Origin: Candidatus Pacearchaeota archaeon
GTDB lineage: Archaea; Nanobdellota; Nanobdellia; Pacearchaeales; GW2011-AR1
Assembly: GCA_018221285.1 (NCBI GenBank)
Contig: JAAOYJ010000003.1
Span: 151,030-215,029 of the forward strand
Reading direction: 5' to 3'
Length of the DNA: 64,000 nucleotides
This document shows positions 7,916-32,989 of the stretch, one piece after another. Both the position numbers and the translations under genes were made by a program. Position 1 is the first letter of the stretch; every line of letters begins with the position of its first letter. Below the pieces are notes generated by a model, which saw nothing but the letters and a program-made list of their open reading frames with translations, did not search any database and was not told the DNA's origin.

Positions 7916-8319
7916 TTTCTTAACCCCTCAATATATTGTTTTAAATGAGCCTTACTTCTGAAAATCTTGTTCCGAATCTTGTTCCGAATATCTTTAATCT
8001 CCTCTGGACTTAACAAACCTTGCTTTTTCATCTCAGCGACGTATCTTCTCAACTTCCGTGTCATAATAACATAATCTTGCTTCCTTGTCTTAACCTTTTT
8101 CTTAATCTTTCCAGGCCCTCGTTTGTTCTTCCTTTTATCAACTTTCCGCCTCCCTTTAATTTCCTTAACAACAATCGCCCCATCTTCCTTCAAATCCCTG
8201 ACATCCTGCTTTGTTAAAGCTTCCTTAATATCTTCTAACCGCGAATCTACAAACATAACCCTCCCTTTTCCAACTTTCAATGTTCTTGCTGCAAGGTCTT
8301 TTTTCTTTTTTAGGTTCAT
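7912..8319 (-). CDS. rpl19e: Large ribosomal subunit protein eL19
   Basis: 135 residues, close to the archaeal size of about 150. Highly basic, with MNLKKKKDLAARTLKVGKGR and then GRRKVDKRKNKRGPGKIKKK, the eL19 signature, and a C-terminal helix RNKIRNKIFRSKAHLKQYIE. Found only in archaea and eukaryotes. Coupled to eL32 and uL18 by ATGA overlaps. Confidence 0.93.
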   Translation of the reverse strand: MNLKKKKDLAARTLKVGKGRVMFVDSRLEDIKEALTKQDVRDLKEDGAIVVKEIKGRRKVDKRKNKRGPGKIKKKVKTRKQDYVIMTRKLRRYVAEMKKQGLLSPEEIKDIRNKIRNKIFRSKAHLKQYIEGLRK

Positions 8320-8786
8320 TTTTTCTTATTCTCACTTTTAGTTTCCGAAACTTCTTTCTTATCAGATTCTTTTTCCTTCTTCTTCGGCTTGTTTTGTTTC
8401 AAAAACTTTTCAACATTTAAATTATGAATTTGAATTTTCTTTTGTTTTGCAATTGTTGTTATCTCCATTTTCTTTTTCTTCCCAACTTTCCCAATAACTG
8501 CAATTTGATTCTTTCCTACCTTCTCCAACTCTTGAACATTCTTGATTATCACAGGTTGCTTTGCCCCTTCATTCCGTGCTTCGGGGTACGCCGAGCGGCG
8601 CTTAATCTTCCCACGAGATTCCTCAGGATTCTTATAGCCAACACTCACAACCTTTGGATAACCTCTTCTCTTCTCCCTCATCTTATTATCTCTTCCAGTC
8701 GGCCTTCTCCACTTCTGATTCTTTTTTACTCCCTTACCAAGTTTAACATATCTGCTAGATGTTCGTCTAAGGAATTTTTTAGGCAT
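8316..8786 (-). CDS. rpl32e: Large ribosomal subunit protein eL32 with palindromic insert
   Basis: 156 residues. The eL32 core is visible: RRTSSRYVKLGKG, then WRRPTGRDNKMREKRRGYPK, VSVGYKNPEESRG, and VKNV-type IIKNVQELE. Where the family usually has a short stretch such as RGLHPSG, this protein has RRSAYPEARNEGAKQ, encoded by the 42-bp repeat at 8560-8601. The C-terminus is a lysine-rich tail. eL32 binds 23S rRNA domain II. Confidence 0.92.
   Translation of the reverse strand: MPKKFLRRTSSRYVKLGKGVKKNQKWRRPTGRDNKMREKRRGYPKVVSVGYKNPEESRGKIKRRSAYPEARNEGAKQPVIIKNVQELEKVGKNQIAVIGKVGKKKKMEITTIAKQKKIQIHNLNVEKFLKQNKPKKKEKESDKKEVSETKSENKKK
8560..8601 (+). repeat. In-frame palindromic element, copy 1 (in eL32)
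   Basis: 42 bp starting TTTGCCCCTTCATTCCGTGC. It contains a CCCC/GGGG arm pair and a hairpin CGCC-GAGC-GGCG. Two other copies lie at 11542 (uL5) and 12323 (uL24), all encoding a YP-x-x-x-NEGA segment in the same frame. This copy has CGCC/GGCG where the uL24 copy has CACC/GGTG, a compensatory pair change. Confidence 0.85.
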
Positions 8787-11051: not shown

Positions 11052-11600
11052 TTACTCAAACTTCGTTTTGAAGTTATCCTCCATGAATTTAATTATTTCT
11101 TCTTTCGAAATCATTTGTCTCTTAGGAACCTTACCTTTCTTTATCTTTTTTAACTTAACTCTTCTACCAGTTCTCTTGAAAACAACAGTAACATCAAACC
11201 CAATAATCCCAATCTCTCTCTGATACTCAATTCCTGGAATCTCAATATACTCTTTCACTCCAAACGAAAAGTTATTCTCACTCATTTGTTTTTTCTTTAA
11301 CTGATTATCAACTGCTGCTAACATTCTCTTCAAGATTTCTTCTGCTCTTTTCCTAATTGTAACCATTGCTCCAATCTCTAACTGGGGCCTAACTCCTAAT
11401 GAAGGAATTCTCTTTCTTGAACTTGTCCTCGCAGGCTTCTTACCTGTAAGCAATTCAAGAAGCTTAACTCCTTTCTCAAGCGGATCTCCAATCCCTCCGA
11501 CACTAAGCACAACCTTCTCAATCTTTATTTCTCTCATTATATTTGCCCCTTCATTCCGTGTTTTGGGGTACATCTGGCGGTGCTGTTTTTTCCCTTCCAT
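11052..11600 (-). CDS. rpl5: Large ribosomal subunit protein uL5 with palindromic N-terminal insert
   Basis: 182 residues. The conserved part begins MREIKIEKVVLSVGGIG and includes TSSRKRIPSLGVRPQLEIGA and FGVKEYIEIPGIEY, all uL5 features. Before MREIK there are 21 extra residues (QMYPKTRNEGANI) encoded by the 42-bp repeat at 11542-11583. The ATG at 11600 gives a TAATG overlap with eS4, so the insert is probably translated, although ATGs nearer the core exist. Binds 5S rRNA. Confidence 0.9.
   Translation of the reverse strand: MEGKKQHRQMYPKTRNEGANIMREIKIEKVVLSVGGIGDPLEKGVKLLELLTGKKPARTSSRKRIPSLGVRPQLEIGAMVTIRKRAEEILKRMLAAVDNQLKKKQMSENNFSFGVKEYIEIPGIEYQREIGIIGFDVTVVFKRTGRRVKLKKIKKGKVPKRQMISKEEIIKFMEDNFKTKFE
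11542..11583 (+). repeat. In-frame palindromic element, copy 2 (in uL5)
   Basis: 42 bp identical over the first 18 bases to copy 1, then TTTTGGGGTACATC-TGGC-GGTGC. The second hairpin is CATC/GGTG with one G-U pair. Encodes MYPKTRNEGA at the N-terminus of uL5. Confidence 0.85.
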
Positions 11601-12250
11601 TATTCTACCACCATTAATTGTTTAATTAAAACATTAATATCATCTTTATCCACATTCAACTTTGCCATTTTTCTTTCAAGCATTATCTTCTCTATCACCC
11701 CGTGCTTTCCTGCGTGTTTACCGTCGAAAACAACTGCTTTCGCCTTTTCTTTCAGTGGAAGACATTTTGTTATTTTCTTATCTTTGAAACTCATAACCAC
11801 AGAATCTCCTGTATTACATTTAACCTCTGAAAGGAAATTTCCTCCTCCTCTCAAATTCAACTGAACCTTCTTTCCCTTCAATGTTTTCTTTCCAATAATC
11901 TTTGCCACCTTCTGATTCAACTCACTTTCCTTAATCTCTTCAAGCGAATATTTTCCAAGTTTTGACAGAACCACTCTATAATGTTTCTTCGACGGAACCA
12001 CACTTATCGTGTCAAACAAAAGCGCAGCATTCTTGTCATCTGTAGCTAGCTTATTATTATGCAAAATCTTTTTCTCATGAATCGCCCTCTTAACTTCCTT
12101 TCTATTCTGACAAACTCCTAACATATCTCTAAACACAATCAAAAGAGGAACTCCTCTCTGAGGATTAAAGTTAGGTCTAACCACATACTTCGTACCCTTC
12201 CTCGGAATCGGCCATCTCTTTGGTGCTTTGTGTCTTTTTAGGTGTGCCAT
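11600..12250 (-). CDS. rps4e: Small ribosomal subunit protein eS4
   Basis: 216 residues. The archaeal eS4 layout is visible: MAHLKRHKAPKRWPIPRKGTK, an S4-type RNA-binding segment (RKEVKRAIHEKKILHNNKLA), a central domain, and a KOW-like end (DGKHAGKHGVIEKI). A shared archaeal and eukaryotic 30S body protein. TAATG overlaps both uL24 and uL5. Confidence 0.93.
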   Translation of the reverse strand: MAHLKRHKAPKRWPIPRKGTKYVVRPNFNPQRGVPLLIVFRDMLGVCQNRKEVKRAIHEKKILHNNKLATDDKNAALLFDTISVVPSKKHYRVVLSKLGKYSLEEIKESELNQKVAKIIGKKTLKGKKVQLNLRGGGNFLSEVKCNTGDSVVMSFKDKKITKCLPLKEKAKAVVFDGKHAGKHGVIEKIMLERKMAKLNVDKDDINVLIKQLMVVE

Positions 12251-12738
12251 TATTTCTTTTCCTCCTTAACTTTTTTAGTTTGAACTTTCTTTTTAGGTAT
12301 TTCTTTCTTAACTTCCACTTTCTTTGCCCCTTCATTCTGTGTTTTGGGGTACACCGAGCGGTGCCCACCCAACTTAGCCATCCTTTTCCGATCATCCAAA
12401 TTCAATTCAACAATCTGCAAGTTCGAAGCCCTCAGCGGAACATTTACTTTTGAACCTTCTTGTTTCTTAACCTGAATTCCTTCAATATATATCTTCATCA
12501 TCTTAGTCTTAACCTCTGTAACTTTACCTTTCTTCTTCTTAAACTTACCTCTCATAACAATCACAACATCCCCTTTAACAACAGGAATATTTCTCTTACC
12601 ATGCTTCGCCCTCAACTCTTTAGACAAGTTCACACTCAAAAACTTTCTCTTAAGATGCAACGGCGCATTTGCTAGATACTTTCTCTGCTTCCTCGGTTGC
12701 TTCGAGGATTTCCATGATGTACTAAATTTTGATTTCAT
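12250..12738 (-). CDS. rpl24: Large ribosomal subunit protein uL24 with extended C-terminus
   Basis: 162 residues; archaeal uL24 is about 120. The core has FSTSWKSSKQPRKQRKYLAN, a KOW motif (VVKGDVVIVMRGKFKKKKGK) and VPLRASNLQIVELNL. After GGHRS the 42-bp repeat adds VYPKTQNEGAK, followed by a lysine-rich tail (KKEIPKKKVQTKKVKEEKK). uL24 is an early 23S rRNA-binding assembly protein. Confidence 0.92.
   Translation of the reverse strand: MKSKFSTSWKSSKQPRKQRKYLANAPLHLKRKFLSVNLSKELRAKHGKRNIPVVKGDVVIVMRGKFKKKKGKVTEVKTKMMKIYIEGIQVKKQEGSKVNVPLRASNLQIVELNLDDRKRMAKLGGHRSVYPKTQNEGAKKVEVKKEIPKKKVQTKKVKEEKK
12323..12364 (+). repeat. In-frame palindromic element, copy 3 (in uL24)
   Basis: 42 bp, starting TTTGCCCCTTCATTCTGTGT, with second hairpin CACC-GAGC-GGTG. 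Same frame as copies 1 and 2, encoding RSVYPKTQNEGAK. Compared with copy 1 the second stem base pair is A-T instead of G-C. Confidence 0.85.
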
Positions 12739-14882: not shown

Positions 14883-15572
14883 TTATTTCTTCCTCCTTAC
14901 TTTCTTCTTTGCCTTCTTCTTAACTACAACATCTGGCAACTCAGCATTTGCCATGTTATCTTTTAATGTTGCAAGCATTTCATCAGTAATCTTAATTTGA
15001 TCTTTTAACACAGCATGAGGAGAAAGTATCGCGACCTTTACTCCAACTGTTCCTGGCTTTGTCTCTGCTCTTGCCTGCGCCCTATCAACAACTTTTGCGC
15101 TGTCTCCAGCCTTCTTCAAATAACCTTGTGCAAATCTCCACGACTTTGCTCTTGAACCAGGAAGTTTACCATTTAATCTAATTTCAACTCCAAGCGCACC
15201 AGCGTCGAGAATTCTTTGCAAAGCCCTATAAGCAACAACCTTAAACCTTATCGGTCCAAACCTCTCCAACGAAAGCGCAATCTCATCTGCCATAATCTGC
15301 GCATCAAACTCTGGCTGCGCCACCTCATCAATCTCAATATGGGGATTCTCAAGTTTGTACTCCTTTTTCACCATCCTTGTCAATTCATTTATCTTCTCAC
15401 CCTTCCTTCCAATAACCAATCCTGGTTTATGGGTGGAAATAATTATCTTCTCTCCAACAGGCGTATATTCTATCCGAACCTTGCTAACCTTCCCCTTTCC
15501 AAGATTTTCCTTAATAGATTCCTTGATCGCAAACTCATCTTTCTTGAACTTAACTGTTATTCTTTCTTCCAT
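14883..15572 (-). CDS. rps3: Small ribosomal subunit protein uS3
   Basis: 229 residues. An N-terminal KH domain carries the GLVIGRKGEKI loop; the C-terminal domain has DAGALGVEIRLNGKLPGSRA. Forms part of the mRNA entry tunnel. Its lysine tail (VVKKKAKKKVRRKK) is long. TAATG overlap with uL22. Confidence 0.95.
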   Translation of the reverse strand: MEERITVKFKKDEFAIKESIKENLGKGKVSKVRIEYTPVGEKIIISTHKPGLVIGRKGEKINELTRMVKKEYKLENPHIEIDEVAQPEFDAQIMADEIALSLERFGPIRFKVVAYRALQRILDAGALGVEIRLNGKLPGSRAKSWRFAQGYLKKAGDSAKVVDRAQARAETKPGTVGVKVAILSPHAVLKDQIKITDEMLATLKDNMANAELPDVVVKKKAKKKVRRKK

Positions 15573-16321
15573 TATTTCTTACCTCCAACTTTTTTCTTTT
15601 TAGTTTTCTTAACTAATTTCTTCTCTCTCGCTTTAATCGTAACATGCGTCCTCTTCTTTCTTTTCCCTCCGCTTGCAAAAGGCCTTTGAGCCATATTTGC
15701 AACAGCCTCAACAATTATAGGATCTTCAACTCCATGATTATTCGCATTTGATTTCAAACTATTCAATAACATAATAAAATTCTCAGAGGCTTTCTTTGGA
15801 AATCTCCCTGACATCATTCCCTTCCCCTTTCTATGTGGAATCTCACCCTTCATTGGAACAGCTTTCTTCTTAACAACAACCATTTCCAAGTCCTCAATCG
15901 CTTTGTCAATCTTCTTTCCTTTGACAAACTTACATATTGCCATAGCATATTTCGTAGATATGTGCAAACTCTTCCCATTCACAACAACTTCTTCTTTCTC
16001 AACCATTTTTTTAGGAACAATTTTCTTTTTAGGTTCTTTTGGTTTGTCGTCTGGTTTAGATTTAGCTTCGCCTTTCGGCTCAGGAGTTTTTTCAGTAGTT
16101 AATGATTCATCTGAAGTCTTTTGTTTCTGAGTGTCACTTGTTGGTTTAGGTTTATCAATTTGAGTAATTTGTTTATCCTTACTAACATCTTTAACTTTAT
16201 CCTCGCTGATCTTCTTTTTTTTAACAACTTCTTTCTTTTCTGAAATTTTAGCCTCAGCTAACTTCCTTGTCTTCTGTGCGTCTTCCTTCATGTCTTGTGG
16301 TTGTTTAACTTCATCTGTCAT
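15572..16321 (-). CDS. rpl22: Large ribosomal subunit protein uL22 with long N-terminal tail
   Basis: 249 residues; archaeal uL22 is usually about 150-160. Residues 1-110 form a Lys/Glu/Ser-rich unstructured tail. The core follows: VVNGKSLHISTKYAMAICKF, IPHRKGKGMMSGRFPKKA and the tunnel-lining loop region MAQRPFASGGKRKKRTHVTI. The tail shares LAEAKISEKKEV and PEPKGEAKS with the uS5 and uL10 tails, so those extensions appear related. TAATG overlaps at both ends. Confidence 0.92.
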   Translation of the reverse strand: MTDEVKQPQDMKEDAQKTRKLAEAKISEKKEVVKKKKISEDKVKDVSKDKQITQIDKPKPTSDTQKQKTSDESLTTEKTPEPKGEAKSKPDDKPKEPKKKIVPKKMVEKEEVVVNGKSLHISTKYAMAICKFVKGKKIDKAIEDLEMVVVKKKAVPMKGEIPHRKGKGMMSGRFPKKASENFIMLLNSLKSNANNHGVEDPIIVEAVANMAQRPFASGGKRKKRTHVTIKAREKKLVKKTKKKKVGGKK

Positions 16322-31942: not shown

Positions 31943-32989
31943 CTAAAGCCCTTTAATCTTCAACTCTCCCCTATCTCTCCCAAGAACTAATACTCTACTC
32001 TCAATCTTCTCATCGAGAATTTTCATATCAACACCAATCAGATTCAACTCTTCAACAAGCTTCTTTGAAAATTCTCTCATGTCGTCGTGAGTTGGCATTC
32101 TATCATAACCAAGTCTTTCTCTAGCAAATCCAACACTCATGAATCCCTTCAACTCCACAAACATTGGATTTGATTTCTTAATCATTTCAGCATATTCTTC
32201 AAGATAGTCGTCTTTCATATTCAAATCTTTTACAAGATTCATTCTAAAGATGCCTCTTGTAGACATTCCAGGAGGAATGTCTCGGGGTACACCCTTGGGT
32301 GCTGTCCGGCAAGATAATTCTGCCATAAGTTCCAAAGTCTCATTCAACTTTTCCCAAGCATCTTCTTTTGAACTTCTATGAAACTTTATGTAAAGTTTTT
32401 TGTTCGGAGAATTAATAGAAACATAAAGCTGTGTCGGCAACTGTCCTTTTTCTTTGAGTTCTCTAAGCTTTTCAGGATAAAGCCCATTAGTAACAAGAAA
32501 ACTTGTCTTCCCTCTTTTATGAAGTTCTTCAATCAACCCTCCAAGTTTCTCATAAACTGTCGGCTCACCTGAAAGCGAAATCGCAAACTGCATTGGCTCT
32601 TGAGCCTCTGCCCATTTTTCTTGATTAGCCTTACTCAATTGTTTCTTATCACTCTTAGGATCAATCTTAAAACCCATCAACAATTTTCTCTGGGCTTGAA
32701 TGCATTTATCAATAATCTCAGACGGAGAATCAACCTCTCCCTTCAACTCATCCCCAATCGTACGCTCTATCGCCCTCCAACAATGCACGCACTTATTCGG
32801 ACACCACATCACAGCAGGAGTCATCTGACAACAAAGATGCGACTTAATACCATAAAACTGCTCCTTGTAACAAACCCCTTCATCCCTCAAGGACTTCTTA
32901 GTCCATCGACAAGTCTGCACAGCAGAATGCTTCCCAGCAATTTCATAATGTTGTTTCTTTAATAATTTCTTAACGTCATCTGGAATCAT
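31943..32989 (-). CDS. taw1: tRNA 4-demethylwyosine synthase Taw1 with an insertion
   Basis: 348 residues. Radical SAM cluster motif MWCPNKCVHCWR (CxxxCxxC, about residue 62), N-terminal cysteines (CRW, CYKEQFYGIKSHLCC), SGEPTVY, and the C-terminal VELKGFMSVG and RMPTHDDMREF. It makes 4-demethylwyosine at G37 of tRNA-Phe. Between SCRT and IFRMNLVKDLNM, where the family normally runs on (RTV-R-TLVKG), there are 17 extra residues APKGVPRDIPPGMSTRG encoded by the palindromic element at 32259-32308. CTTTAAAATC box upstream. Confidence 0.92.
   Translation of the reverse strand: MIPDDVKKLLKKQHYEIAGKHSAVQTCRWTKKSLRDEGVCYKEQFYGIKSHLCCQMTPAVMWCPNKCVHCWRAIERTIGDELKGEVDSPSEIIDKCIQAQRKLLMGFKIDPKSDKKQLSKANQEKWAEAQEPMQFAISLSGEPTVYEKLGGLIEELHKRGKTSFLVTNGLYPEKLRELKEKGQLPTQLYVSINSPNKKLYIKFHRSSKEDAWEKLNETLELMAELSCRTAPKGVPRDIPPGMSTRGIFRMNLVKDLNMKDDYLEEYAEMIKKSNPMFVELKGFMSVGFARERLGYDRMPTHDDMREFSKKLVEELNLIGVDMKILDEKIESRVLVLGRDRGELKIKGL
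32259..32308 (+). repeat. Palindromic insertion element within taw1
   Basis: Two perfect hairpins: AGACATTCC-AGGA-GGAATGTCT (32261-32282) and CACCC-TT-GGGTG (32290-32301). The half CGGGGTACACC...GGTGCTG resembles the 42-bp element in the ribosomal genes (TTTGGGGTACACC...GGTGC), but it is read in another frame and its other arm is different. Confidence 0.75.

Follow-up and report, generated by a model that had tools for sequence, protein, structure and literature searches.

A palindromic insert in the archaeal enzyme Taw1 and its probable place in a family of short mobile elements tolerated in translated genes

The gene for the tRNA 4-demethylwyosine synthase Taw1 (TYW1) in a Pacearchaeota-like genome carries a precise in-frame insert of 17 residues, very probably one member of a group of short mobile palindromes that are non-autonomous and that this lineage tolerates within translated genes. 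Precise insertion, dispersal, a conserved stem plan and an architecture that lets the host frame read through were all observed in this family. The gene lies in the window, the 64-kb stretch of DNA analysed as a whole here (G000:C42:151030-215029), which belongs to a draft assembly of 863 kb in 43 contigs with 81.8% completeness and 5.8% contamination. An earlier note on this DNA had proposed that the Taw1 insert is related to a palindromic element in a ribosomal protein gene, and this proposal is upheld by the precise empty sites, the dispersed family and the joined flanks described below.

The insert in Taw1 and its boundaries

The host protein is a genuine TYW1/Taw1, with matches to TIGR03972 (348 bits, E 2.6e-104), PF08608, PF04055 and the solved structure PDB 2yx0 (E 1.4e-85). 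It reads ELMAELSCRT-APKGVPRDIPPGMSTRG-IFRMNLVKDLNM, with the 17 extra residues APKGVPRDIPPGMSTRG set between CRT on one side and IFRMNLVK on the other. In an alignment of 29 proteins, the window's own included, the insert is missing at the same point in 27 relatives, small length variation aside, and the solved Taw1 structures 2yx0, 2z2u and 6djt also lack it; all of these align on both of its sides, so that the comparison of homologues which the earlier note had named as capable of refuting its claim does not refute it. Removal of the element joins the flanks CACCCAAGGG...AGAGGCA to read AELSCRTVFRMNLVKDLNM, which is the family sequence, and the joined flanks SCRTVFRMNLVK equal the family sequence. 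A target duplication, to which the TCT on either side might point, was ruled out because the joined flanks explain the site without one. The element had been placed at 32259-32308; it is indeed present there, but its true span of 51 bp, 32251-32301, is shifted by a few bases, and its ends remain uncertain by 1-2 bases. The perfect hairpins that had been reported were recovered, namely 9-bp arms at 32261-32269 and 32274-32282 together with the perfect palindrome CACCCAAGGGTG (Table 1). As the window holds four perfect 9-bp hairpins, such hairpins alone are not decisive. The partial match to the ribosomal element was likewise found, as GGTGTACCCC in the L24 gene (12346-12355), where it is read in another frame.

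Table 1. Positions in the window of the Taw1 host gene, its insert and the related ribosomal protein sites
Feature	Position	Strand	Evidence
Taw1/TYW1 (tRNA 4-demethylwyosine synthase), 348 aa, host gene	31943..32989	-	TIGR03972, PF08608, PF04055, PDB 2yx0
Palindromic insert of 51 bp, subtype F (CACCCAAGGGTGTACCCCGAGACATTCCTCCTGGAATGTCTACAAGAGGCA), residues 230-246	32251..32301	-	Joined flanks; absence in 27 relatives; subtype in G095 and G128
Stem-loop 1 of the Taw1 element, CACC CAAG GGTG (palindrome CACCCAAGGGTG)	32290..32301	-	Fold and family stem-1 covariation
Perfect 9-bp hairpin AGACATTCC TCCT GGAATGTCT, within stem-loop 2	32261..32282	-	Hairpin search; fold of the whole 51-bp element, z -2.65
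Basic copy of 39 bp in the gene for ribosomal protein L24 (HRSVYPKTQNEGA; 12250-12738)	12325..12363	-	R1 E 1.2e-18; G001 orthologue without element
39-bp copy in the gene for ribosomal protein L5 (11052-11600), near the N-terminus	11544..11582	-	R1 E 1.7e-16
39-bp copy in ribosomal protein L32e (KRRSAYPEARNEGAKQ)	8562..8600	-	R1 E 2.2e-16; PF01655; same site filled in G001
Ribosomal protein L22 region, empty site at about 15623 (GAG^AAG)	15324..15865	-	Alignment; PF00237 in G001 orthologue; junction position

A dispersed family with a common stem plan

Ten occurrences of the core GGTGTACCC were counted in the genome as against 0 for the reversed control and, judged on these sequences, the match between the Taw1 and L24 elements is not due to chance. 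Examination of 129 unique copies revealed the plan CACC-loop-GGTG-TA-CCCC-loop-GGGG-CA, whose basic form of 39 bp is CACC GCTC GGTG TA CCCC (15 nt) GGGG CA. Longer forms of 48, 51, 57, 63, 69, 72, 75 and 81 bp have added hairpins between or inside the two stems, and the family as a whole ranges from 33 to 81 bp with two to four short stem-loops. A covariance model, R1, built from eleven copies recovered about 25 places at E<0.1 (best 1e-18) in the source assembly, G000, and matched sequence in 28 of the 138 genomes from its own archaeal family, with up to 47 matches in the sister genome G001; most genomes lack the element. When 371 genomes drawn from the whole phylum were scanned, matches were confined to this archaeal family with one weak exception, and the distribution thus sampled is patchy and practically restricted to it. 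The exact consensus is present in two named records, Nanoarchaeota MAG JAHKAF01 and Candidatus Pacearchaeota RS_12_27; viral contigs scanned with the exact pattern yielded no element, and Rfam has no relevant family. The 85 basic copies all differ from one another, which suggests that very recent bursts are rare; two G001 loci carry identical 57-bp copies.

The Taw1 copy itself falls under the R1 threshold, and its assignment rests on architecture, boundaries and subtype pattern rather than on score. Its subtype, TACCCCGAGA-(perfect hairpin)-TCTACAAGG, recurs with differing arm sequences in the genomes G095, where the hosts are an Elp3-like protein (named by eye) and one more, and G128; the pattern was found at 4 places in the 138 genomes and at 0 in reversed controls. 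The Taw1 copy is hence of a divergent subtype common to another genus and did not arise afresh from the element in L24. The mobility inferred earlier can be called recent relative to the split from G001, whose Taw1 is 82% identical to that of the window, but not with respect to the element, given this divergence.

What is conserved is the stem plan and not high stability, since the Taw1 copy and that in a TrxB-like gene fold to the same plan with z of -2.65 and -3.63, whereas a 39-mer of the basic form shows no unusual stability by itself (z -0.73) and the copy in the Taw1 gene of G001 is predicted to fold off plan (z 0.43). Among the 85 basic copies stem 1 occurs as CACC/GGTG, CACT/AGTG, CGCC/GGCG, TGCC/GGCA and CGCA/TGCG, giving 41 compensatory cells where shuffling gave 8.4 on average and 17 at most, although the shuffle does not control for relatedness.

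Filled and empty sites

Sister-genome alignments provided clean pairs of filled and empty sites at L22, at two sites in GyrA and at GatA (G128 against G095), a comparison that the earlier note had suggested. At L22 a 39-bp element in G001 stands exactly at GAG^element^AAGAAG, and the window has the empty GAG^AAGAAA; conversely, L24 is filled in the window and its G001 orthologue is without the element. No target duplication was seen at the L22, GyrA, GatA or Taw1 junctions. Nearly all copies are preceded by G or A and followed by A-rich sequence, with the reservation that the exact ends could move by one or two bases. At Taw1 the joined flanks restore the family sequence, and G001 carries a different element of 57 bp and unlike sequence, 10 bp upstream of the window's site, whose own joined flanks read LPDLGCRTVFRMNLVK. 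The Taw1 of G001 is the only other protein in the alignment with an insert in this region. Because the two elements differ in this way, the Taw1 loop was, as far as the sequences show, hit twice independently. In ribosomal protein L5 a 57-bp subtype occupies in G001 the same place as the 39-bp copy of the window. The L32e gene of G001 (locus L109, 8352-8388) has a second element near its C-terminus, which that of the window (8319-8786) lacks.

Some sites, in a NifS-like protein and in the TsaD region, are common to several genera, so that part of the family is apparently old. The NifS-like aminotransferase is filled at the same codon in two genera (loci L056, G000:C36:20370, and L185, G067:C47:18753), and for this reason some insertions would be either old or transferred. 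Separately, an element and its flanking DNA are near-identical between loci of different genera (L117, G001:C18:3556, and L088, G097:C3:5063), for which recent transfer, shared mobile DNA and contamination are alternative explanations. LeuRS stretches from genomes of different genera (L079 in G102 and L188 in G107) likewise share the same element with identical flanking protein sequence.

The conservation of structure among coding copies, the many hosts with roles in translation and replication and the sites held in common by several genera could all be accommodated if the elements served their host genes as mRNA structures or as sites for protein binding and were kept by selection for that role, instead of being selfish DNA that is merely tolerated. 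This we regard as improbable: presence in any one gene is patchy even between sister species, most genomes of the archaeal family have no element at all, positions within a gene differ, and conserved core genes are simply the easiest hosts to recognise.

Reading frame and orientation

The 129 unique copies show a strong orientation bias, the longest frame being sense in 98 and antisense in 5, with no long frame in 26. Only one of the antisense cases, G001 locus L119 (603 aa), looks real; two others (L143 and L179) have plausible sense genes and the remaining two (L047 and L064) are near gene ends. Lengths of the sense copies are divisible by three in 94 of 98 cases. Among the four exceptions, three have ends that are not firmly placed; the last, of 40 nt and located in a ThiI-like gene (L110 798-843, G001:C98), still reads through, and its extra base is unexplained, an assembly error and a compensating change being the alternatives. 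With phases of 45/45/8 the sense copies use all three frames. Given the sense orientation, the keeping of frame, the use of all three frames and the compensatory changes in stem 1, the conserved object is, as judged from sequence comparison, a nucleic-acid structure and not a peptide. Peptides of the consensus are hydrophilic in the sense orientation (GRAVY -1.4 to -2.2) and less so in the antisense (-0.1 to -1.0), and selection at the protein level can therefore account for much of the orientation bias, as far as predicted peptides can tell; alternatively, the insertion machinery may itself favour the purine-rich strand, and the two causes have not been told apart.

The sense bias and the conserved hairpins would also be expected if the elements were removed before or during translation, either as mini-introns that the splicing endonuclease of archaea excises or by ribosome skipping, as in the mitochondrial byp elements and T4 gene 60, and delicate positions such as the enolase loop next to the active site would then be harmless. 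However, removal would need neither in-gene lengths (33 to 81) that are multiples of three in 94 of 98 copies nor the absence of stops from the frame used in in-gene copies, noncoding copies include 38-nt and stop-containing forms, and no bulge-helix-bulge motif was evident by inspection. Splicing and bypass were rejected on these frame statistics, and although the argument is indirect, without RNA or protein data, we consider removal very unlikely. In the absence of transcript or protein data, the Taw1 element apparently undergoes translation and so lengthens the protein by 17 residues.

Consequence for Taw1 and other host proteins

An AlphaFold model of Taw1, made with the 29-sequence alignment, has a mean pLDDT of 90.9, and residues 229-242 form its only stretch below 50. 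The insert, whose mapping on a structure had been suggested, thereby falls in the loop between helix 211-225 and strand 245-252; this rests on a model of one protein only. Helix-to-strand loops in a barrel of this kind generally point away from the active site. The former description of the site as a conserved enzyme core region was too strong, in view of the low pLDDT and of a loop length at this point that varies among relatives, one of which (L008) has a short extension. That same variability is all that would favour an ordinary lineage-specific loop indel with a fortuitous hairpin and L24 match, a reading that is scarcely credible beside joined flanks that restore the family sequence exactly, a subtype pattern that recurs with 0 controls and a dispersed family with E down to 1e-18.

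Other hosts named by Pfam are L32e, GyrA, enolase, DP2, a class-V aminotransferase (NifS-like), a pyridine nucleotide-disulphide oxidoreductase (TrxB-like), L22, a ThiI-like protein, Trm5/TYW2, TsaD, GatD, an amidase (GatA), LeuRS, GatB and PheRS beta; ribosomal proteins L5 and L24 also host elements. The enolase copy sits in the GGGKH...DFQEF loop, which by analogy with the enolase family should be near catalytic residues. Elements occur in this loop in two genera (L164, G030:C10:202836, and L052, G000:C26:57491), and the enolase of G030 apparently has two elements, either adjacent or nested. The DP2 gene at locus L055 (G000:C42, about 90091-93135) contains, besides a palindromic element, an intein splicing domain (PF14890).

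How the elements might move

Under the favoured reading, a mobile palindrome tolerated in translated genes, we infer that the hairpins would be recognised by a trans-acting factor, as single-stranded DNA or RNA, during copying and insertion, and that the mRNA would be translated straight through the element. Selection would then remove copies with frame shifts, stops or critical fold positions, so that the copies surviving in essential proteins would be hydrophilic extensions of loops; for Taw1 the presumed outcome is a flexible 17-residue loop on an enzyme that still works. As a mere conjecture, template switching within the palindrome might generate new perfect hairpins of differing sequence. 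The lack of target duplication would be in keeping with the chemistry of Y1 transposases. No mobilising enzyme could be identified among Y1 transposase, reverse transcriptase and TnpB in assemblies that are mostly incomplete drafts, and the three were set aside as candidates for want of association with the element: 1) Y1 transposases do not track it, since 9 of 15 element-bearing genomes and 6 of 15 element-free ones have them and the G000 draft has none; 2) reverse transcriptases occur in 3 of 10 genomes with and 2 of 10 without; 3) TnpB is found in 0 of 10 element genomes. Elements flanking Y1 genes were not found either, save for one weak match. We lean towards the broader view that these elements constitute an archaeal class of protein-coding mobile palindromes, which would grow by hairpin addition, enter any frame, keep their structure and spread by an unknown mechanism, perhaps as sense-strand single-stranded DNA or RNA.

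Comparison with known systems

Mitochondrial byp elements and the T4 gene 60 bypass are short hairpin insertions in genes that the ribosome skips, so that frame need not be kept; the archaeal elements resemble them as short in-gene hairpin insertions but differ in having lengths that keep the frame. With REP/REPIN sequences and their RAYT (Y1) transposases they share the nature of short multi-copy hairpin elements. REP sequences, however, are mostly extragenic and by definition seldom overlap coding regions (PMC12306157), whereas 98 of the 129 unique archaeal copies are within long sense frames; in addition, no GTAG/CGTC tag was noticed in them and Y1 presence does not track them. MITEs are likewise non-autonomous and dispersed and sometimes form in-frame fusions (PMC10969869), but the archaeal elements have neither terminal inverted repeats joining their ends nor target duplication at clean empty sites.

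The closest likeness is to the palindromic elements of Rickettsia (RPE) and Wolbachia, which are dispersed palindromes in conserved genes of reduced-genome organisms, leave the frame unbroken and have hit the same gene region in different lineages (PMC3767692, PMC10969869). Rickettsia elements lie inside ORFs at exposed positions, with possible hot spots (PMC3767692; reviewed in PMC10969869, which calls their frequency unusual), and each is described as encoding a conserved peptide (PMC10969869). They differ from the archaeal elements in being bacterial and about 100-150 bp long as against 33-81 bp; the latter, moreover, consist of two to four short stem-loops on the plan CACC/GGTG-TA-CCCC/GGGG, are read in any of the three frames and encode no conserved peptide. 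No archaeal report of such elements was found in the literature searched, which left out preprints and most subscription journals and so cannot prove that none exists. The empty sites and hairpin variants together offer a compact system for studying how such elements move, and the copies represent dozens of natural insertion experiments in essential proteins of the ribosome, gyrase, polymerase and tRNA enzymes. By analogy, the archaeal elements appear to work like RPE without being shown to be related to them. Protein-coding palindromes have been known as a peculiarity of Rickettsia and Wolbachia, and an unrelated-looking family in small-genome archaea would mean that such elements had more than one origin.
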